Shown: positions 1,987 through 15,052 of the stretch, piece after piece
Layout of the letters: each line of letters opens with the position of its first letter
Numbering within the stretch: the first letter of the stretch is position 1
Assembly (NCBI GenBank): GCA_945907105.1
Contig: CAMDSB010000029.1
Location: 1 to 15,525 of the forward strand
DNA from: Rickettsia typhi
GTDB taxonomy: Bacteria; Pseudomonadota; Alphaproteobacteria; Rickettsiales; Rickettsiaceae
DNA: 15,525 nucleotides
Direction of reading: 5' to 3'
The notes under the pieces: generated by a model
What the model saw: the letters and a program-made list of their open reading frames with translations, nothing else
Told to the model about the DNA's origin: nothing
The model's database searches: none
Position numbers and translations under genes: made by a program

Positions 1987-3792
1987 TTACTCAACCGTCA
2001 CGCTTTTGGCTAGGTTACGTGGTTGATCAATATCATTTCCTTTTAGAAGGGCTGTGTAATAGGCTAATAATTGCATAGGAATAGAATAGATCATAGGAGC
2101 AATAAATTCATCGCAATCTGGTATGGATACTACCCAAGAAGATGAATCAGACACTTTACTGGCGTGGCGATGACCAACAATAGTCAGTAGTTTTCCTCCT
2201 CTAGCGCTAAGCTCTTGTAAATTGGAAAACATTTTTTCAAATAAATGGCCACTTGGCATCAGAGCAACAACCGGCATATTACTGTCGATTAAGGAGATCG
2301 GCCCGTGCTTTAATTCCCCTCCTGGATAGCCTTCTGCATGGATATAGGACAATTCTTTTAGTTTCAACGAGCCTTCCATAGCAATTGGATATAAATTTCC
2401 TCTACCAATAAATAATACACTAGGTGAGTCCTTAATCTGCATAGCTACTTTTTTTATATCTTCTGACTTAGATAAGATTTCCGTAATCAAGTTTGGTACT
2501 TTTGATAGTTCAGCTGTTAGTGTTTCAAATCTGTTTTGACTAATATTACCTTTTTTCAAGCCAATATCTAAACCAAGTGCAGCAATAACCATTAATTGCC
2601 CGAGAAAAGCCTTGGTAGAAGCAACTCCTATTTCAGGACCAACCATTATTGGCAATATATAATCTGCTATTCTGCCAATAGAACTATTCTCTGTATTCAA
2701 GATAGCTATTGTTTTCTGTCCATAAGATTGCGTTTTTCTCAAAGCTTCGAGAGTATCTAAAGTTTCTCCAGATTGCGAAATGACGATGGTGATTTCATTT
2801 TTTTTCGCCGCATTACGGCGATATCTGAATTCAGAAGCTACTTCGAGGTCAACAAATATGTTTGTCAATTCTTCAAGCCAATATTTGGCAACTAATCCTG
2901 AGTAATAAGCAGTACCACAAGCTAAAATCTTGATACTATCAATCTTATTCCAGTCAATTTTTACTTTGTCTAGTTCATTTCCTGTTAAATATTTTTTGAT
3001 GGTTTGCTCTAAAACCACGGGCTGCTGGTATATTTCTTTAAGCATGAAATGGGGAAAATCATTCTTTGTGACTTCTTCTAATATAGAGGATTTTTTCAAA
3101 GACCTCTTAACTGGATTGTTATTCTTATCAAATATCTGATACGAATCTAAACTAACCACAGCTTTATCACCATCTTCCAAATAAATTACGTTGTTAACTT
3201 TATTACCAAAAGCCACCACGTCTGAAGCAATGTAACTAGCATCTTCTGCTAGCCCTAATATTAGAGAAGTTTTTCTCGAAGTGGCAAATAGAAATTTATC
3301 ACTCTTGAACATGAAAACTACTGAGAATGACCCTTCCAATCTCCCTATAGTCTGAATAGAGGCCTCTTTTGGATCGTTATTTAATGAAATATAATAATCC
3401 AGCAAATTTGTAATTACTTCTGTATCCGTCTCTGATTTAAATTGATAGCCAAGGTTTTGCAACTCTTGCTTTAACTCCTTATAGTTTTCAATAATCCCAT
3501 TATGAACTACAGCAACTCTAGCAGTAGCATGTGGATGAGCATTTACTGCATTTGGCACACCATGAGTTGCCCATCTTGTATGACCGATTCCTATTTGACT
3601 GTTAAACTTCTCTTTGGCTAATAGGTTTTTTAGCACAGCAACTTTGCCGGCAGCTTTAACTACATGTATATTGCCACTCAGAATTAGTGCTAGTCCTGCA
3701 CTATCATACCCTCTATATTCTAGTTGCTCCAGCCCACCGACTAAGATTGGTAATATATTACTTGTAGTAATTCCAGCGATAATTCCGCACAT
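1987..3792 (-). CDS. glmS: Glutamine-fructose-6-phosphate aminotransferase (isomerizing)
   Basis: GlmS makes glucosamine-6-phosphate from fructose-6-phosphate and glutamine, the first committed step to UDP-GlcNAc, in the cytoplasm. The 601-aa length is normal. The N-terminal glutaminase (about 1-240) has catalytic Cys2 (MCGIIAG), the conserved EYRGYDSAG (25-33), GHTRWATHG (70-78) and HNGIIENY (97-104). Two SIS sugar-isomerase domains follow: ACGTAYYSG (291-299), ISQSGETLDT (338-347), GVASTKAF (389-396), EGYPGGELKHGP (487-498) and the usual C-terminal DQPRNLAKSVTVE. No key residue appears altered, so it should be active. The start is fixed by Cys2. It lies 2 bp after the glmU-like stop, with its ribosome site inside that gene, so the two are very probably co-transcribed and translationally coupled. 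Confidence 0.97.
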   Translation of the reverse strand: MCGIIAGITTSNILPILVGGLEQLEYRGYDSAGLALILSGNIHVVKAAGKVAVLKNLLAKEKFNSQIGIGHTRWATHGVPNAVNAHPHATARVAVVHNGIIENYKELKQELQNLGYQFKSETDTEVITNLLDYYISLNNDPKEASIQTIGRLEGSFSVVFMFKSDKFLFATSRKTSLILGLAEDASYIASDVVAFGNKVNNVIYLEDGDKAVVSLDSYQIFDKNNNPVKRSLKKSSILEEVTKNDFPHFMLKEIYQQPVVLEQTIKKYLTGNELDKVKIDWNKIDSIKILACGTAYYSGLVAKYWLEELTNIFVDLEVASEFRYRRNAAKKNEITIVISQSGETLDTLEALRKTQSYGQKTIAILNTENSSIGRIADYILPIMVGPEIGVASTKAFLGQLMVIAALGLDIGLKKGNISQNRFETLTAELSKVPNLITEILSKSEDIKKVAMQIKDSPSVLFIGRGNLYPIAMEGSLKLKELSYIHAEGYPGGELKHGPISLIDSNMPVVALMPSGHLFEKMFSNLQELSARGGKLLTIVGHRHASKVSDSSSWVVSIPDCDEFIAPMIYSIPMQLLAYYTALLKGNDIDQPRNLAKSVTVE

Positions 3793-3794
3793 AT

Positions 3795-4772
3795 TTATTT
3801 CCTCTTATTTGGTTTCATAATTTGCTCAGCTCTGCCTTTAGCAAAAGTGTAGTCCGGAACATCTTTGTTTATAAAAGAACCTGCGCCTATAAGCGAATTA
3901 ATTCCAATAGTTACAGGTGCAATTAAAGAACTGTTCGATCCAATGAAACTATTATCTCCAACTACTGTGACGTGTTTTTTAAAACCATCATAATTACAAG
4001 TGATAACACCTGCACCAACATTAACATTCTTACCTATTTTGGCGTCCCCTATATAAGAAAGATGAGATGCCTTAGTACCAGAAGCCAGCTTGCTGTTCTT
4101 GATCTCAACGAAATTTCCTATCTTGGCTTTTTTTCCAATCTTACTATCACCTCTTATTCTGGCAAATGGCCCTATTTCTGCGCCACTTTCTATTTCCGCT
4201 CCTTCCAAATAAGAAAATGCTCTGATACGGACATTATCATGTAGCTTAACATTTGCTCCAAAATAAACATTGGGTTCAATTATAACTCCCTGACCAAACT
4301 TAGTGTCATGAGATAAATAGGTGGTAAATGGATCTTGTAAATACACCTCCATATCAATTGCATTTTGGCGCAATATATTTTGTACTTCTTGGTTAAAAGC
4401 ATTGATATCAGCGGCATTGTCCAATAATTTAAGTTCACTATGCTCTAAATCCAAACAGGGCCATTCTTGCCTTATATTATTGTAAAATAAATTGATATCA
4501 GGAAAAAATTTATCGAGTAAGTTAATATTAACAGCTGCTATGCATGGTTTTGAGCCTAGTAGACCAACTAAAATATCCTTTTGCGCTTTTTTATTTATAA
4601 ACTCATCAATCATTTTGGTGGTCAATCCTATTAAGTCAGATCTAACCACCACCATAATATCTTCAGAAATTATTAATGGCTTTATAGCATCAAGAGCAAA
4701 TTCTTTTATCGGTCTTGACGCTACAAGGTAATTCCCATGCTCGGAATCTACAAAAAAAATTCTGTTATTCAT
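3795..4772 (-). CDS. glmU: GlmU-like glucosamine-1-phosphate acetyltransferase with degenerate N-terminal domain
   Basis: From the ATG at 4772 the protein is 325 aa, against about 450 for a full bifunctional GlmU. The C-terminal half (about 145-325) is a clear left-handed beta-helix acetyltransferase: hexapeptide repeats, GPFARIR (201-207), KASHLSYIGDA (234-244) with the expected catalytic His237, and GAGVITCNYDGFKKH (253-267). It should convert glucosamine-1-P to GlcNAc-1-P. The first 115-120 residues lack the GxGTRM...PK nucleotide-binding start of the uridylyltransferase domain. What remains (DIMVVVRSDLIGLTTKMI, 38-55, and the LLDNAADINAF linker, 117-126) aligns loosely with the middle and end of that domain, so it looks shortened and degenerate. 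An upstream in-frame extension to 4901 would run antisense to glmM and shows no family motif, so 4772 was chosen. UDP-GlcNAc pyrophosphorylase activity is doubtful. Confidence 0.88.
   Translation of the reverse strand: MNNRIFFVDSEHGNYLVASRPIKEFALDAIKPLIISEDIMVVVRSDLIGLTTKMIDEFINKKAQKDILVGLLGSKPCIAAVNINLLDKFFPDINLFYNNIRQEWPCLDLEHSELKLLDNAADINAFNQEVQNILRQNAIDMEVYLQDPFTTYLSHDTKFGQGVIIEPNVYFGANVKLHDNVRIRAFSYLEGAEIESGAEIGPFARIRGDSKIGKKAKIGNFVEIKNSKLASGTKASHLSYIGDAKIGKNVNVGAGVITCNYDGFKKHVTVVGDNSFIGSNSSLIAPVTIGINSLIGAGSFINKDVPDYTFAKGRAEQIMKPNKRK
3801..3806 (-). promoter_or_regulatory. glmS ribosome binding site inside the glmU-like gene
   Basis: Minus-strand AAGAGG lies 8 nt before the glmS ATG and forms the last sense codons of the upstream gene. 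The upstream stop and the glmS start are 2 nt apart, the classic layout for translational coupling. Confidence 0.7.
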
Positions 4773-4839
4773 AAAAACAACTATATTGTTTACCAGAAAA
4801 GATGTAGAAATAGGGTATTTTAGACAAGGTTTGTATATT
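4773..4839. promoter_or_regulatory. Divergent 67-bp control region between glmU-like gene and glmM
   Basis: Two amino-sugar transcription units start back to back here, so both promoters must lie in or beside this short AT-rich gap. TTGTTT (4786-4791) and TATTTT (4816-4821) are visible on the plus strand but are 24 nt apart, too far for a standard promoter. I cannot assign either promoter. An AGG at 4828-4830, a few bases before the glmM ATG, is the only ribosome-site-like element. Confidence 0.4.
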
Positions 4840-6207
4840 ATGCAAAGGAAATATTTCGGTACAGATGGAATAAGAGGTAGGAGCAATACAGGAACCATCA
4901 CACCTGAAATTATGATAAAATTGGCAAGAGCAACTTCCCTAGCTTGCGATTTTTTAGGAAAAAAACCAACTATTGTTATCGGAAAAGATACTCGTCTATC
5001 TGGTTATATGCTTGAATTTGCTTTAACTTCTGGGTTCATTTCAATGGGAGCTAACATAGTATTGGTTGGTCCAATACCAACGCCTGCAATATCAATGCTG
5101 GTTCAAAGTTTAAGAGCAGATTTAGGTATGATGATTTCAGCTTCCCATAATCCATATTACGATAATGGAGTTAAGTTTTTCACTTCCTCAGGTCATAAAA
5201 TCTCCTCTGAACTTGAAAATAAAATTGAACAATTAATGAAAACTGAATTATCAGAATATGTTGCAGGCTATGATGATTTAGGCAAAGCTGTTAAGCTTGA
5301 GGATGCACGCGGACGCTATATCGAACATGTAAAATATTCATTTCCTGGGAAGCTTAAATTAGATGGTATAAAAATCGTAATTGATTGTGCTAATGGTGCG
5401 GCTTGGGATATTGCTCCAAAAGTATTTCATGAACTAAAAGCAGAGGTTATTTCATGTGGTATAAGTCCGAATGGTTTTAACATCAATCAAGAATGCGGCG
5501 TTATGGATCCGCAAGTTGTAGCCAGCGAAGTTCTAAAACACAAAGCAGATTTAGGAATTGCCTTAGATGGTGATGCCGATAGAGTGCTCATTGTTGATGA
5601 AAATGGTAAGGTTATAAATGGAGATCAAGTTATAGCGGCATTAGCTGATTATTCTTTGCAATCAGGCACTTTAAAAAATAATTTTGTGGTTACGACTATT
5701 CTATCAAATATGGGTCTAGGGTTGTATTTGAAAACTATTGGCCTAGATTTAATCCGTACGAATGTTGGTGATAAGTATGTCGTAGAAAAAATGACCGAAC
5801 TCGGTTGCAATTTAGGTGGAGAGCCATCGGGTCATATCATTACTGGACCCAACCAAGCCACGGGCGATGGTATAAAAGCAGCTCTTGGTGTTCTTGCAAT
5901 GTACAAGGAAGCAAAAAATATTCCTATCAGCCATTTGCTTAATAAATTTACGCCAGTCCCGCAATACACTCGTAATATTAAATACGATCACAATCATTTT
6001 AGTCAATTTACAGCGTCTGGCGATGAAAAAATTAAGACTCTAGCGAGATCTTATCAGGAGCGCTACAAAGATGATGCTAGGATCATAATAAGACCTTCTG
6101 GCACTGAACCGATCATAAGATTAATGATCGAAAGTAAAAATGAAGCTCTGGCCCAGCGGTTACTGAAGGAGATCGAGCGGGAGGTAGAGAAAGTGAGTTC
6201 TTTTTGA
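4840..6207 (+). CDS. glmM: Phosphoglucosamine mutase
   Basis: GlmM interconverts glucosamine-6-P and glucosamine-1-P, the step between GlmS and GlmU. From the ATG at 4840 the protein is 455 aa, normal for the family. It begins MQRKYFGTDGIRG, the standard N-terminus. A start at 4786 would add 18 residues (MFTRKDVEIG...) absent from the family and was rejected. All four alpha-D-phosphohexomutase motifs are intact: phosphoserine loop MMISASHNP with Ser102, metal loop DGDADR (243-248), sugar loop GEPSGH (327-332) and phosphate loop RPSGTEPIIRL (418-428). It should therefore be active. It stands alone on the plus strand, divergent from glmU-glmS, and its stop is only 7 bp from the stop of the convergent acyltransferase gene, leaving no room for a terminator. 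Confidence 0.97.
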   Translation: MQRKYFGTDGIRGRSNTGTITPEIMIKLARATSLACDFLGKKPTIVIGKDTRLSGYMLEFALTSGFISMGANIVLVGPIPTPAISMLVQSLRADLGMMISASHNPYYDNGVKFFTSSGHKISSELENKIEQLMKTELSEYVAGYDDLGKAVKLEDARGRYIEHVKYSFPGKLKLDGIKIVIDCANGAAWDIAPKVFHELKAEVISCGISPNGFNINQECGVMDPQVVASEVLKHKADLGIALDGDADRVLIVDENGKVINGDQVIAALADYSLQSGTLKNNFVVTTILSNMGLGLYLKTIGLDLIRTNVGDKYVVEKMTELGCNLGGEPSGHIITGPNQATGDGIKAALGVLAMYKEAKNIPISHLLNKFTPVPQYTRNIKYDHNHFSQFTASGDEKIKTLARSYQERYKDDARIIIRPSGTEPIIRLMIESKNEALAQRLLKEIEREVEKVSSF

Positions 6208-6214
6208 GTCAATC

Positions 6215-8323
6215 TTATTTTGAACTTTTTGTTTCTAACTCCGATACCCAGTTAATAAAATCGTTAATTAAGATTTTAGCACCTACATCGTTCAAATGAT
6301 CATCGTCGTTATACAATATAACACCATCCTTTTTTACATAGCATCGATGTTTATCACAAAATAAATGAGTTGGGTCGTAAACCACCAAGGATGGAATACG
6401 TTTTTGAATTTCAGCTACTAGCTCGCGATATTTCTTTTGTCTTGCATCTACCTCGCTTCGATCTAAAGAACATATTGGCATTTTTTTCCAAAAGTTCAAC
6501 GGTCTTTTTAAGCATGCTTTTGGGTCAAAACCAATCTCTGGGATATCTATAGTAAAAATTACTTTTTTTCCTCTTGAGATTAAATAATTTATTATTTCTA
6601 CATAACCTTCTACAAACTTCTTATTTATATCAGCTGCGTCATTTTTGTCCTTTAGATTTTCTATAGTCCAGTCTTTCATGTCCGATGCATTTAGTTCGCA
6701 TCCGAATCCGAAACCAGATTGATAAAATGCCCCTCTATTTACTAGCACTATGTACTCTATTGAGTCATAAGAGTTGAGAATTTTATTTAGAGCCTCCATT
6801 TTTCTTAGCGAACCATTTAAGACACTTTCTTTATCATGAACAAGTGGGCTGTAATTTATATAACTGATGAATGGTAATCTTCCGCCCATTGATAGCGCAA
6901 TAAAATCAAAATTATGTGAAGTATCTGGAGTAATAAATGCCAATGAATGACTATCTCCTAGTACGAAAAATTTTGGATTGCTACTATTTTTTGAACAATA
7001 TGGGTCTGGCGCCACTCCTTCTATAGGCTTCAACTCTCCACCAGTAAGACAATCAACTCCAACTTTTTGAAGTAATTTTAGGTCGGTAAAAATGACATGA
7101 GGTAAAGCAGAGCTTAGGTTAGCTACTCTCAAGGGATATCCTTTATTCCTAGCAACCAAAGCACCGAAAACTCCTATTATAATTAAAAACAAACTCAAAA
7201 TAAATACTACAATTTTTTTGTTTTTGGATAAGCGAATTGGTTTTTCAAAAAATTTATATGTTACCCACGCAAGTACGAAACTAATTAATATTACTATCCA
7301 TATAATTTTTTTTGGTAAATCACCTCCATCTAATATATGTCCAAATGATAATAATGGCCAATGCCACAAATACAATGGATAGCTTATTAAGCCAACCCCG
7401 ACAAACAACTTTTGGGACAATATTTTTTTATTAATCCAAGTGTTCTTTCCAGCTGCTATAATTAATACACTACCAATTACGGGGAATATTGCTTGCCACC
7501 CAGGAAAGTTATTACTTTTTTTCAAATAAGTAATAGAGAGAATGCACATAGCTAGTCCCCCTATTGAGGCTAGCTCTTGAAGCGTTGTATCCTTGTGACT
7601 TTTGTAACTATTATAAATTATTATATTAAGATAGTGATTTATAGTTTTCTTAAATTTTTCAATATTTGCATTTTTTTCCAAATTTATATAAGCAAGCATA
7701 GAACCGATAATTAATTCCCACATACGACACCATGGAAAATAAAAAGCATTAACAGGATTTTTATGCAGTATGTGGATGCTAATAAAAAATGAGAGAAATA
7801 TCGTTACTATGATAATTGAAAGTAAGTTCAAACCATATTTTCTTCCCAGGTAAAGAAACAAAGGCCAGAATATATAGAATTGCTCTTCAACTGCAAGTGA
7901 CCATAAATGTAACAATGGCTTTGCAATAGAGGCTATGTCAAAATAGCCAGCTTCTTTTGCGAGTGTAAAATTTGTGTAAAATAGTGTGCTTGCCTTGATA
8001 TGCTTTCCAAGCTGAATATATTCAATATCAGTTAAAACAAACCAACCTAATAGAGCACAAGAAGATAAAACCAATAGCAACGCAGGAAAAATTCGTTTTA
8101 TCCGCCTTGCATAAAATTCAAAAAGACAAAAATTATTATTCTCTAGATTTTTGAGAATTATAGAACTGATTAAGTAGCCAGAAATCACAAAAAAAATATC
8201 AACTCCAACAAAACCACCTTTTACATATTTTGGAAAAGCATGATGAAGAACAACTGCAAGAACCGCTAGAGCTCTTAAACCATCAATGTCACTGCGATAT
8301 CTAATTAGGGAGTAATTGTTCAT
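6215..8323 (-). CDS. O-acyltransferase, acyltransferase-3 plus SGNH domains (copy 1)
   Basis: Integral-membrane, OafA-type protein of 702 aa that probably transfers acetyl or another acyl group to a surface glycan. Residues 1-390 form the acyltransferase-3 domain with about ten membrane spans: YRSDIDGLRALAVL (9-22), HH (27-28), FFVISGYLIS (44-53), RRIKRIFP (73-80), HLWSLAVEEQFY (139-150) and YPLYLWHWPLL (315-325). After a last span (about 370-390) comes an SGNH-hydrolase-like domain, presumably periplasmic, with GDSH (456-459, nucleophile Ser458) and the C-terminal D-x-x-H (DDDH, 673-676). Both catalytic blocks appear intact. The ATG has a good AGGA site 4 nt upstream. It is a close paralogue of the gene at 8860-10959; residues about 395-560 are the diverged part. 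It is the last gene of the glycan cluster and converges on glmM. Confidence 0.92.
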   Translation of the reverse strand: MNNYSLIRYRSDIDGLRALAVLAVVLHHAFPKYVKGGFVGVDIFFVISGYLISSIILKNLENNNFCLFEFYARRIKRIFPALLLVLSSCALLGWFVLTDIEYIQLGKHIKASTLFYTNFTLAKEAGYFDIASIAKPLLHLWSLAVEEQFYIFWPLFLYLGRKYGLNLLSIIIVTIFLSFFISIHILHKNPVNAFYFPWCRMWELIIGSMLAYINLEKNANIEKFKKTINHYLNIIIYNSYKSHKDTTLQELASIGGLAMCILSITYLKKSNNFPGWQAIFPVIGSVLIIAAGKNTWINKKILSQKLFVGVGLISYPLYLWHWPLLSFGHILDGGDLPKKIIWIVILISFVLAWVTYKFFEKPIRLSKNKKIVVFILSLFLIIIGVFGALVARNKGYPLRVANLSSALPHVIFTDLKLLQKVGVDCLTGGELKPIEGVAPDPYCSKNSSNPKFFVLGDSHSLAFITPDTSHNFDFIALSMGGRLPFISYINYSPLVHDKESVLNGSLRKMEALNKILNSYDSIEYIVLVNRGAFYQSGFGFGCELNASDMKDWTIENLKDKNDAADINKKFVEGYVEIINYLISRGKKVIFTIDIPEIGFDPKACLKRPLNFWKKMPICSLDRSEVDARQKKYRELVAEIQKRIPSLVVYDPTHLFCDKHRCYVKKDGVILYNDDDHLNDVGAKILINDFINWVSELETKSSK
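7635..7753. repeat. 119-bp tract identical to 10271-10389 (copy 1)
   Basis: Base-by-base comparison shows this segment to be identical over 119 bp to 10271-10389 in the paralogous gene, including all synonymous positions. Flanking sequence differs frequently. It encodes about residues 190-231 of the acyltransferase domain. Recent gene conversion is the simplest explanation. Confidence 0.9.
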
Positions 8324-8381: not shown

Positions 8382-8864
8382 TTAATTCAAACCTAAACCA
8401 TCTGCATTATCTAGATCATAAAAAAACCAAGTAAAAATGGTATTACTAAAAGCTTTATTAGTGTATACATTAGCTAGAGTCTCAGTATGAACCTTAAAAA
8501 AAGCAGTAGTTTTTAAGCCCTATTGTTCATATTTTGCACGTACTTCTGGATCCAAGCTATTACCACTTCCTCCGCCCGCTGAGTCAATTTCTAAAAATTT
8601 AAAATATTTCTGTTCACCCATATTTTCTGCAACAGCAACATTAATATTGGTATCTCTTGGCCTATCAGCATCAAATAATTTGATAGTATCTATTATATTA
8701 GGATCAATATTAACGCCCTGCCAGCCTCGATCGTAGAGTTTTTTGGTATTAGAAAACAGACTTGGATGATAACAACCAATATCCATATATATTCCTTTTT
8801 TTGATTTTTTAAAAATGTACTCCAATATTACATCTTCACAATAATGTGAAAAATATTCTTTATT
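8382..8864 (-). pseudogene. Broken FkbM-family methyltransferase
   Basis: The minus-strand frame between the two acyltransferase copies reads KEYFSHYCEDVIL, then GIYMDIGCYHPSLFSNT, LYDRGWQGVNIDPN and RPRDTNINVAV. These are the N-terminal and SAM-binding parts of FkbM-family methyltransferases, often found in glycan clusters. The gene looks broken in three ways. There is no ATG before the conserved start: an in-frame TAA lies at 8865-8867, and the first possible starts are a TTG at 8825 and a late ATG at MDIG. An in-frame TAG (8520-8522) interrupts it after AKYEQ. Beyond the TAG, GLKTTAFFKVHTETLANV still resembles the family, but the frame ends at TAA 8382 about 45 codons later, well short of a full C-terminal half. 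It joins the copy-2 stop by a 5-bp overlap. It is probably a relic trapped during the acyltransferase duplication. Confidence 0.75.
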
Positions 8865-10959
8865 TTAAACTTTTTGTTTCTAAATCTGAAACCCACTTAA
8901 CAAAGTCGTTAACTAATATTTTAGCACCTTCTTGGTTTAAATGATCCTGATCATAGTATAGTATTATACCATCTTTTTTTACATAACATTTATGTTCATC
9001 ACAAAATAAATGATTGGGATCATAAACTAATAAAGATGGAACACGCTTTTGAATTTCCGCTACTAATTCACGATATTTTTTTTGTCTCGCATCTACGTCG
9101 CTTCGATCTAAAGAACATGCTGGCATTTTTTTCCAAAAGTTCAATGGTCTTTTTAAACATGTTTTTGGGTCAAAACCAATAGCAGGATTGTCAATAACAA
9201 ACACCACTTTTTTTCCTTGAGAATTTAAAAAATTTATTAACTCAACATAGCCCTCCACATACTTTTGATCTGGATCTGATAAATCATTTTTATCTTTTAA
9301 ATTCTCTATGATCATAGGGCTGTTTTCATTGTAACCGGAATAAGATATTCCTATATTAACTAATACCACATACTCAATTGAGTTATAAAAATTAAGAATT
9401 TTGTGTATGATTTCCATCTTCAAAGAGTGCAGTTTTAACTGATTTTCTCTACCAAAATAATTCGAAAAGGAATCATTGAAATAAAGGAGATAATTTATAA
9501 ATGGCAGCGTAGAGGGATCGTTTAGAGTAAAAAAGTCATAATTTTCATTAAGCTCAAAATCAATAAATGACAACGCATGACTATCTCCAAGTACAAAAAA
9601 CTTTGGTTTTTTGCTATTTCTTGAGCAATATATGGGATACCATACATTTTCTGCCGCTTTTTTATTTATATCAGGAACTGGTATACAATCTAACGTCATG
9701 TTCTCTAATAAACGCGCATCTTCGCGCATAGCACCGGGAATGTAAGTATTTAAATTAGCCCAGCGCATAGGGTATCCCTTATACCTCACAATAACATGAC
9801 CAAAAACTCCCATTACAATGAAACACAAAGTCAACATGAGTACTATAACTTTTTTGTCTTTGGATAAACGAATTGGTTTTTCAAAAAACTTATATGTTAG
9901 CCAGGCAACTATGAAGCTCAGTAATATTGCTATCCATATAATTTTTTTAGGTAAATTGCCGCCCTCTAATATATGTGCAAATGATAATAATGGCCAATGC
10001 CACAAATACAATGGATAGCTTATTAAACCAATACCGACAAATAATTTTTGGGACAATATTTTTTGGTTAATCCAAGCGTTGTTTCCAGCAGCTATAATTA
10101 ATACACTACCAATTACCGGTAATATTGCCTGATACCCAGGAAAATTATTACTTTTTTTCAAATAAACAATAGGAAGAACGCACATGGCAACTCCAACGAC
10201 TGAAGCTATATCTTGAAGAGTTGTATCTTTGTGGCTAGATTGGTTTTTATAAATTATTATATTAAAATAATGATTTATAGTTTTCTTAAATTTTTCAATA
10301 TTTGCATTTTTTTCCAAATTTATATAAGCAAGCATAGAACCGATAATTAATTCCCACATACGACACCATGGAAAATAAAAAGCATTAACTGAATTTTTAT
10401 GCAGTATAGTGATGCTAATGAAAAATGAAAGAAGTAGTATTACTATGCTAATTGAAAGTAAATTCAAGCTGTATTTACTTCCAAAATAAAGCAACAATGG
10501 CCAGACTATGTAGAACTGTTCCTCAACTGCAAGCGACCATAGATGTAACAATGGCTTAGCAATAGAGGCTATGTCAAAATAGCCAGCTTCTTTGGCGAGT
10601 GTAAAATTTGTGTAAAATAAAGTGCTTGCCTTAATATGTTGTCCCAATTGGATATATTCAACATCAGTTAAACTAAACCAACCCAAAGCGACGCAAGAAG
10701 ATAACACCAATAGCAACGCAGGGAAAATGCGTTTTATCCGCCTTGCATAAAATTCCAAAAGACAAAAATTATTATTCTCTAGATTTTTGAGAATTATAGA
10801 ACTGATTAAGTAGCCAGAGATCACAAAGAAAATATCAACTCCAACAAAACCACCTTTTACATATTTTGGAAAAGCATGATGAAAAACAACCGCCAGCACT
10901 GCTAAAGCTCGGAGGCCATCAATGTCACTGCGATATCTAATTAGGGAGTAATTGTTCAT
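8860..10959 (-). CDS. O-acyltransferase, acyltransferase-3 plus SGNH domains (copy 2)
   Basis: A 699-aa paralogue of the gene at 6215-8323 with the same layout: multi-span acyltransferase-3 domain (1-390) with YRSDIDGLRALAVL, FFVISGYLIS, RRIKRIFP and HLWSLAVEEQFY, then an SGNH domain with GDSH (458-461, Ser460) and D-x-x-H (DQDH, 670-673). The catalytic residues are intact, so it should also acylate a surface glycan. By hand count the first 370 residues match copy 1 at roughly 87%, and the last 130 are also very similar. Residues about 398-560 share well under half. The two genes agree at the DNA level through the start codon and 4 nt upstream, then diverge. Copy 2 lies 79 bp behind the GT2 gene, so it may be read from the wecB operon. 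No clear ribosome site precedes its ATG. Confidence 0.92.
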   Translation of the reverse strand: MNNYSLIRYRSDIDGLRALAVLAVVFHHAFPKYVKGGFVGVDIFFVISGYLISSIILKNLENNNFCLLEFYARRIKRIFPALLLVLSSCVALGWFSLTDVEYIQLGQHIKASTLFYTNFTLAKEAGYFDIASIAKPLLHLWSLAVEEQFYIVWPLLLYFGSKYSLNLLSISIVILLLSFFISITILHKNSVNAFYFPWCRMWELIIGSMLAYINLEKNANIEKFKKTINHYFNIIIYKNQSSHKDTTLQDIASVVGVAMCVLPIVYLKKSNNFPGYQAILPVIGSVLIIAAGNNAWINQKILSQKLFVGIGLISYPLYLWHWPLLSFAHILEGGNLPKKIIWIAILLSFIVAWLTYKFFEKPIRLSKDKKVIVLMLTLCFIVMGVFGHVIVRYKGYPMRWANLNTYIPGAMREDARLLENMTLDCIPVPDINKKAAENVWYPIYCSRNSKKPKFFVLGDSHALSFIDFELNENYDFFTLNDPSTLPFINYLLYFNDSFSNYFGRENQLKLHSLKMEIIHKILNFYNSIEYVVLVNIGISYSGYNENSPMIIENLKDKNDLSDPDQKYVEGYVELINFLNSQGKKVVFVIDNPAIGFDPKTCLKRPLNFWKKMPACSLDRSDVDARQKKYRELVAEIQKRVPSLLVYDPNHLFCDEHKCYVKKDGIILYYDQDHLNQEGAKILVNDFVKWVSDLETKSLK
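10271..10389. repeat. 119-bp tract identical to 7635-7753 (copy 2)
   Basis: Partner of the tract in the first acyltransferase copy. It lies about 2.6 kb away in the same orientation, so recombination between the two could delete one chimeric gene length plus the fkbM remnant. Confidence 0.9.
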
Positions 10960-13921: not shown

Positions 13922-15052
13922 TTAACTAACTTTACTTAACACATCTATTATATATTTACTACTTTTTCCATCCCCATAAGGATTAATCGTTGTAGAAATA
14001 GATTCGTAATAATCACTATCCTCAAGCAATTTTTGAGTTTCGGTAATTATTGTCTCAGTATTAGTTCCGACAAGTTTGGCTGTGCCAGCATCAATACCTT
14101 CAACTCTTTCTGTAACTTCTCGAGTTACTAAAACAGGTTTGCCAAGAGAGGGTGCTTCTTCTTGAAGCCCGCCTGAATCAGTAATTATTAGATATGACTT
14201 CTCCATGAGCCATATGATATAGGGATATTCTAAAGGCTCAATTAGAAAAAAATTCTTAATATCGCTAAGCATAGGTTTTACAATTTCTTGTACATTTGGA
14301 TTAAGATGAACAGGATATACAAATTGTACTTCAGGATACTTGAAAGCTAGCGTTTTGAATGCGGTGCAAGCATCTTGCATAGGCTTCCCAAAATTTTCGC
14401 GTCTATGGCCAGTAATCAAAATTATTTTTTTATTAAAATCTAAAAAATTAAAATGCCTCATGTAAGGGCCTTCATTAGAATTTTTGATTAAATTTAAGCC
14501 TAAAAAAAGGGCATCAATTACTGTATTACCAACTACATAAACATGATCTTTTATATTTTCTTTATTTATATTTTCTTTTGACAGATCAGTTGGAGCAAAA
14601 TGATAATCTGCAATATGTCCAACTAAAGTACGATAAGTTTCCTCTGGATAGGGAGACTGTTTATCTCCACTTCTAAGACCTGCCTCGATATGGGCTACTT
14701 TGCACTTTTGATAAAAACCGGCTAAAGCACCAATAAAAGCTGAAGTGGTGTCGCCCTGTACGAGCACTATATCGGGTTGTACCTTTTGCATAACTGGTTT
14801 GAGAGCAGCAAGACCAATGCTTGTTACATCTGAAATATCTTGATTGGGACGCATTAGATTCAAATTAAAATCAGGCTGTATTTTAAAAAAATCTAGAACC
14901 TGATCTAGCATCTCCTTATGTTGACCAGTTACGCATATTATTACTTCAAAATTTTTAGGATGATTTTTTGCTTCTTGAATTAGAGGGGCCATTTTAATTG
15001 CCTCCGGTCTAGTGCCAAAAATAAATAAAAGTTTTTTACATTTTTTTATCAT
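13922..15052 (-). CDS. wecB: UDP-N-acetylglucosamine 2-epimerase (non-hydrolysing)
   Basis: WecB interconverts UDP-GlcNAc and UDP-ManNAc in the cytoplasm, supplying ManNAc or ManNAcA for surface polysaccharides. The 376-aa length is normal. Family landmarks are intact: FGTRPEAIKMAPLI (12-25), VTGQHKEMLDQVL (41-53), VQGDTTSAF (98-106, Asp101), HIEAGLRSGD (121-130, Glu123), PEETYR (136-141), TGHRREN (214-220, His216), TDSGGLQEEAPSLGKPVLVTR (starting at 291) and NPYGDGKSS (357-365). The conserved acid and His positions of the E. coli enzyme have counterparts here, so activity is expected. It is the first gene of a tight minus-strand operon. Its ATG has no strong ribosome site. No wecC (UDP-ManNAc dehydrogenase) is in the window, so the final sugar could be ManNAc itself or its acid. 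Confidence 0.95.
   Translation of the reverse strand: MIKKCKKLLFIFGTRPEAIKMAPLIQEAKNHPKNFEVIICVTGQHKEMLDQVLDFFKIQPDFNLNLMRPNQDISDVTSIGLAALKPVMQKVQPDIVLVQGDTTSAFIGALAGFYQKCKVAHIEAGLRSGDKQSPYPEETYRTLVGHIADYHFAPTDLSKENINKENIKDHVYVVGNTVIDALFLGLNLIKNSNEGPYMRHFNFLDFNKKIILITGHRRENFGKPMQDACTAFKTLAFKYPEVQFVYPVHLNPNVQEIVKPMLSDIKNFFLIEPLEYPYIIWLMEKSYLIITDSGGLQEEAPSLGKPVLVTREVTERVEGIDAGTAKLVGTNTETIITETQKLLEDSDYYESISTTINPYGDGKSSKYIIDVLSKVS

Follow-up and report, generated by a model that had tools for sequence, protein, structure and literature searches.

The window analysed here, the whole 15,525-nucleotide stretch of contig CAMDSB010000029.1 (assembly GCA_945907105.1, Rickettsia typhi), carries on its reverse strand, at positions 3795..4772, a gene for a 325-residue protein that we call GlmU-AT, a putative glucosamine-1-phosphate (GlcN-1-P) N-acetyltransferase without a working uridyltransferase (UT) domain. 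We consider it very probable that GlmU is split and that this protein supplies its acetyltransferase half, with a separate UT encoded elsewhere in the genome making UDP-N-acetylglucosamine (UDP-GlcNAc) and with residues 1-112 being most likely a dead relic of the UT domain. The reading frame extends from an ATG at 4772 to a stop at 3795. The mechanically called frame begins further upstream, with a GTG at 4901; we take the ATG as the start because the relatives in the alignment start there (MNN, MSN or MDH) and because the GTG extension would overlap glmM, the neighbouring gene on the other strand. Since glmM begins only 67 bp upstream of the GlmU-AT start, a longer domain would not fit there.

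The acetyltransferase half is intact, as had been proposed in an earlier reading made from the letters of the window only (the original prediction). GlmU models match the protein from about residue 100 to residue 323, which takes in a linker or helical arm (residues 113-150; 4323..4436, reverse strand) and a left-handed beta-helix acetyltransferase domain (residues 151-325; 3798..4322, reverse strand). In the alignment the arm corresponds to the last part of the UT domain plus the arm of fused GlmU, with a helix at residues 120-140 in the predicted model; the beta-helix is recovered by family models, solved structures and the predicted model, its active-site residues being conserved. Solved GlmU structures (1hv9, 3dj4) align with this half, and H237 of the motif HLSYIGD (position by arithmetic, codon read at 4062..4064, reverse strand) is invariant across a 20-row alignment in which 16 rows are short forms. 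We take this residue to be the catalytic His of GlmU. The beta-helix half is strongly constrained, with a ratio of nonsynonymous to synonymous substitution rates (dN/dS) of 0.05-0.15 in six pairs. The protein thus shares arm, beta-helix and invariant His with the bifunctional enzyme but, lacking a working UT domain and a nucleotide loop in residues 1-112, falls below the curated whole-protein cut-offs (TIGR01173, 226.2 bits against 366.85; PRK14353, 293.5 bits against 505). From its sequence we infer that it N-acetylates GlcN-1-P. The alternative bacterial GlmU described by TIGR03991 combines a different N-terminal domain with a beta-helix acetyltransferase that follows it; that model reaches only 46.7 bits on the window protein, against a cut-off of 225.3, and covers residues 138-314 only.

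The short form is shared by relatives. Protein searches, which considered only proteins 0.55 to 1.75 times the query length, returned among the best 120 of 7,995 matches 28 proteins of 312-350 residues with at least 93% query coverage and 44-100% identity, one of them named from 'Candidatus Rickettsia vulgarisii'; the model alignment held 25 short forms, the window protein included. A genome scan found short-form loci in a metagenome-assembled genome of the Rickettsiaceae (genome G001) and in a Candidatus Megaira symbiont whose chromosome is complete. The G001 locus is 99.47% identical to the window in DNA over 3,024 bp, and for that reason G001 is taken as a genome of the window's species. 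Among 85 genomes searched as Rickettsiaceae, the acetyltransferase half was matched in eight (G001, G002, G021, G022, G024, G027, G084 and G085) at the threshold used for the glmU model, E 1e-20.

In most short-form genomes the missing half is encoded apart. In G001 and in the Megaira genome the glmU model hits twice, once on the acetyltransferase half and once, separately, on a stand-alone UT (positions 1-241 or 2-240). The UT of G001 (C54), 241 residues long, matches positions 1-238 of TIGR01173 with 210 bits, and its residues 3-236 align with solved GlmU, including the AAGKGSRM...LPKVMH loop; it is a complete UT domain with its nucleotide loop and has no hexapeptide match. Both pieces are separately encoded in seven of the eight short-form genomes, namely G001 and six others; in G021 (assembly size about 0.9 Mb) only the acetyltransferase half and no UT was matched. 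Across the 85 genomes the glmU model matched 63 and a UT was matched in 62; no match was obtained at the threshold in 22, some of them small assemblies, and none held a GlmU match that exceeded the cut-off or spanned both halves. In the wider order, Rickettsiaceae included, a full GlmU over the cut-off is present in 166 of the 261 genomes sampled. Among the 120 relatives listed for the G001 UT, 119 have 236-288 residues, the other being a partial record of 173, and none of the 120 has a hexapeptide domain, proteins longer than about 420 residues lying outside the search range. The named organisms among these listed matches include Rickettsiaceae bacteria and two Rickettsia endosymbionts. All 17 UT loci show eight motif patterns, which were fitted to these same sequences and are no independent test; among 30 fused GlmUs the patterns often fail, one of them occurring in only 3. 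In one genome, G031, the UT is matched at two separate places, and the acetyltransferase half is not matched. A record filed under the brown alga Ectocarpus sp., P0138, comes from a contig of 605 bp; this incomplete protein is 99% identical to the G001 UT over 72% of the latter's length, which suggests an association with brown algae for the window's species or a very near relative.

The neighbours of GlmU-AT are those expected of a substrate supply for it. Directly downstream lies a full-length glmS (1987..3792, reverse strand; TIGR01135, 738 bits against a cut-off of 418), and the divergent neighbour is a full-length glmM (4840..6207, forward strand; TIGR01455, 515 bits against 448), its ATG at 4840 being judged by homology within a mechanical frame that opens at 4786. 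Further along, wecB (13922..15052, reverse strand) is assigned by family models to UDP-GlcNAc 2-epimerase, a consumer of UDP-GlcNAc. All three are full-length members of their families scoring over the cut-offs, which for GlmS and GlmM bears out the intact appearance noted in the original prediction. GlmS occurs in exactly the same eight genomes as the acetyltransferase half, the two being jointly present or jointly absent in 85 of 85 (counts not corrected for kinship). GlmM exceeds its cut-off in seven genomes, six of the eight with short forms plus G077, in which neither GlmS nor the acetyltransferase half was found; in G021 a nearly full-length GlmM match falls below the cut-off and lies on a different contig from the acetyltransferase gene. 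The contig of G001 ends inside the acetyltransferase gene, at the place where glmM would follow and where the window has it. In the regions of seven relatives glmS always stands beside the acetyltransferase gene, and in six of them glmS, glmU-AT and divergent glmM keep the order of the window. The seventh region, that of G021, has glmS adjoining the acetyltransferase gene and another gene in the place of glmM. Its short form is more distant, with a different and still shorter N-terminal part, and the gene adjoins a MurF-like gene (read by eye) and a divergent glmS.

Together, these genes could form a pathway like the ordinary GlmS-GlmM-GlmU route with GlmU spread over two genes. The adjacent GlmS and GlmM would supply GlcN-1-P, GlmU-AT would turn it into N-acetylglucosamine-1-phosphate (GlcNAc-1-P), and the stand-alone UT, a homologue of GlmU's N-terminal half, would join this product with UTP (uridine triphosphate) to give UDP-GlcNAc. 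The original prediction had offered three sources for the uridylyl transfer, the odd N-terminal domain, another enzyme or host UDP-GlcNAc, and it is the second that is borne out. Because a stand-alone UT is encoded elsewhere in seven of the eight short-form genomes, neither host UDP-GlcNAc nor a replacement enzyme is needed in genomes with both pieces. Of the suggested "split or replaced" pathway only the first word survives, the UT being homologous to the missing half of GlmU; the sugar pathway looks split, and not broken or replaced.

What the N-terminal domain represents is a separate matter. Residues 1-112 (4437..4772, reverse strand) amount to about half the size of a UT domain and are probably a shrunken UT-fold relic. 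That this part is short and without the nucleotide-binding start, as first described, is correct: the GxG[ST]RM...K loop was looked for in the sequence and the alignment and is not present, neither Pfam nor NCBIfam gives a nucleotidyltransferase match for residues 1-112, and residues 1-118 match no nucleotidyltransferase family in family-model searches. The weak resemblance that had been claimed to the UT domain's middle and end is upheld for the end and the linker arm, where it begins at about residues 100-113, but residues 1-112 show none that is significant by sequence. In the structure comparison, nucleotidyltransferases, GlmU among them, recur through the ranked matches of the predicted fold of residues 1-118, and the domain occupies exactly the place of the UT domain in GlmU; the predicted model suggests that residues 1-112 descend from the original UT domain, reduced in size and most likely catalytically dead. 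The sequence profiles weigh against this, since a comparison of residues 1-112 with the UT domain gave an HHalign probability of 0.6%, and 24 of 200 column shuffles scored as high. The domain might then be a newly recruited small module, serving for example in docking or regulation, which would be compatible with a split enzyme. Such recruitment would agree with the absent profile link, with the purifying selection on the domain (dN/dS < 1) and with KSNLIGLT, a motif particular to this domain and found in most short forms; given the predicted fold and the position, we regard it as unlikely, if a serious contender. Three relatives of 206-217 residues (P0027, P0028 and P0030) have no N-terminal domain at all, the identity being 79-80% where they match.

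The same fold resemblance and the same purifying selection could be taken to mean that the domain still performs the uridyltransferase reaction through an altered active site. This is extremely improbable in our view, as the domain lacks the loop and half of the expected size, is missing from the 206-217-residue relatives, and is accompanied by a canonical UT in trans in most short-form genomes. Scarcely better placed, and still very unlikely, is a supply of UDP-GlcNAc from the host with the acetyltransferase half as a decaying leftover. The fast change of the N-terminal domain would suit decay, and Rickettsia are predicted to use host sugars in the available parts of one study (PMC5615194), but the beta-helix half is under the strong constraint described above, and the strict joint occurrence of GlmS with this half, in genomes most of which also have GlmM and the UT, would be hard to reconcile with a leftover. 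We give practically no credence to a full GlmU masked by a sequencing frameshift, a misassembly or a wrong start. Its sole support is the mechanical GTG start further upstream; glmM begins 67 bp away, and the short form recurs in the 28 listed proteins and in the complete chromosome CP084576. The original prediction had named such a restored domain as one of the things that would undo it, and the conservation of the short form across relatives excludes this.

A split GlmU thus remains the preferred reading, and it meets a complementary case in the literature. In the accessible portions of their paper, Driscoll and colleagues describe a Rickettsia GlmU from which the acetyltransferase domain is entirely missing, and they propose host GlcNAc-1-P as the compound that Rickettsia convert (PMC5615194). 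The break falls at the same domain border as in the window protein and in the same bacterial family; as reported there, Rickettsia have the UT half only, whereas the window has the opposite half together with GlmS and GlmM. A review, in the part available, gives GlmM and GlmS as absent from all Rickettsiaceae covered (PMC5814848), and the available text of a further paper gives Orientia tsutsugamushi as lacking glmS, glmM and glmU (PMC2408715). As worded in that part of the review, the blanket absence fails for the lineage of the window and for Megaira, because the complementary half is kept there with GlmS and GlmM. To call the finding new biology, as had been done, was therefore too strong, the UT-only form and the absence of GlmS and GlmM being already in print. 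The acetyltransferase-only counterpart was not found described in the sections at hand of the literature on GlmU or glmS in Rickettsiaceae and Rickettsiales, monofunctional GlmU and gene fission, and we found no literature joining Megaira with glmU. The present results provide that counterpart and suggest that Rickettsia, with its UT-only form, has retained one half of a split enzyme. The name "bifunctional GlmU", which some sources give to either half, does not fit these proteins.

The history of the two halves is less clear-cut. The stand-alone UTs form one clade, both in a quick tree (10 rows, 7 near-identical rows of 17 being left out) and in a careful one (13 rows, 100/100). The quick tree groups them with the fused GlmUs L057 and L079 and two other fused GlmUs (97); the careful UT tree does not recover this grouping, yet a constraint that keeps them with L057/L079 is not rejected (approximately unbiased (AU) test, p 0.53). 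Acetyltransferase-only rows, chosen from those at hand, fall together in the quick tree (15 rows, 89) but in only 50% of the bootstrap trees of the careful analysis (11 rows); AU p is 0.46 for these rows as one clade and 0.36 with L057/L079 added. The fused rows were 30 loci picked by a motif script from 50, the careful trees omitting L081, and the other fused proteins were every fourth or fifth from the protein search listing. A single GlmU, duplicated or broken in two, is a plausible source of both halves. When the acetyltransferase half is mapped on a UT tree built from 36 of the 62 Rickettsiaceae genomes that have a UT (the long-branch rows L118 and L121 among them), at least four changes between presence and absence are required, compatible with repeated loss of the glm set, with its transfer between lineages, or with both. 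In G027 glmS, glmU-AT and glmM are far more divergent than in any other compared relative except G021 (GlmU-AT 42% and GlmM 58% against the window), and its UT groups among close relatives, with that of G033; simple descent does not fit this pattern, and transfer of the glm set or uneven rates would.

We can tentatively imagine glmS, glmU-AT and glmM as a compact set, leading from fructose-6-phosphate to GlcNAc-1-P, that Rickettsiaceae retain, lose or transfer as a whole and that feeds a family-wide stand-alone UT. The presence of the set might then decide whether host GlcNAc-1-P is needed, and the shrunken UT domain might hold the acetyltransferase trimer together or dock the UT. Related genomes with and without the set offer a natural comparison for the source of UDP-GlcNAc precursors in Rickettsiaceae.

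Some further loci deserve mention. In another family of the order, GlmU appears as two adjacent, overlapping pieces with stops (G227:C1:27864-29169), possibly a broken or freshly split gene. Two genomes, G260 and G290, encode a divergent UT-only protein (L106 and L107) in addition to a fused GlmU, L106 lying outside the Rickettsiaceae UT clade. In the window itself, 9-1517 encodes a protein with an autotransporter beta-domain (PF03797), and two similar acyltransferase-3/SGNH proteins (6215-8323 and 8860-10959) flank a 101-residue frame at 8520-8825 that Pfam does not match, an arrangement that may have arisen by duplication around the remnant of a gene.
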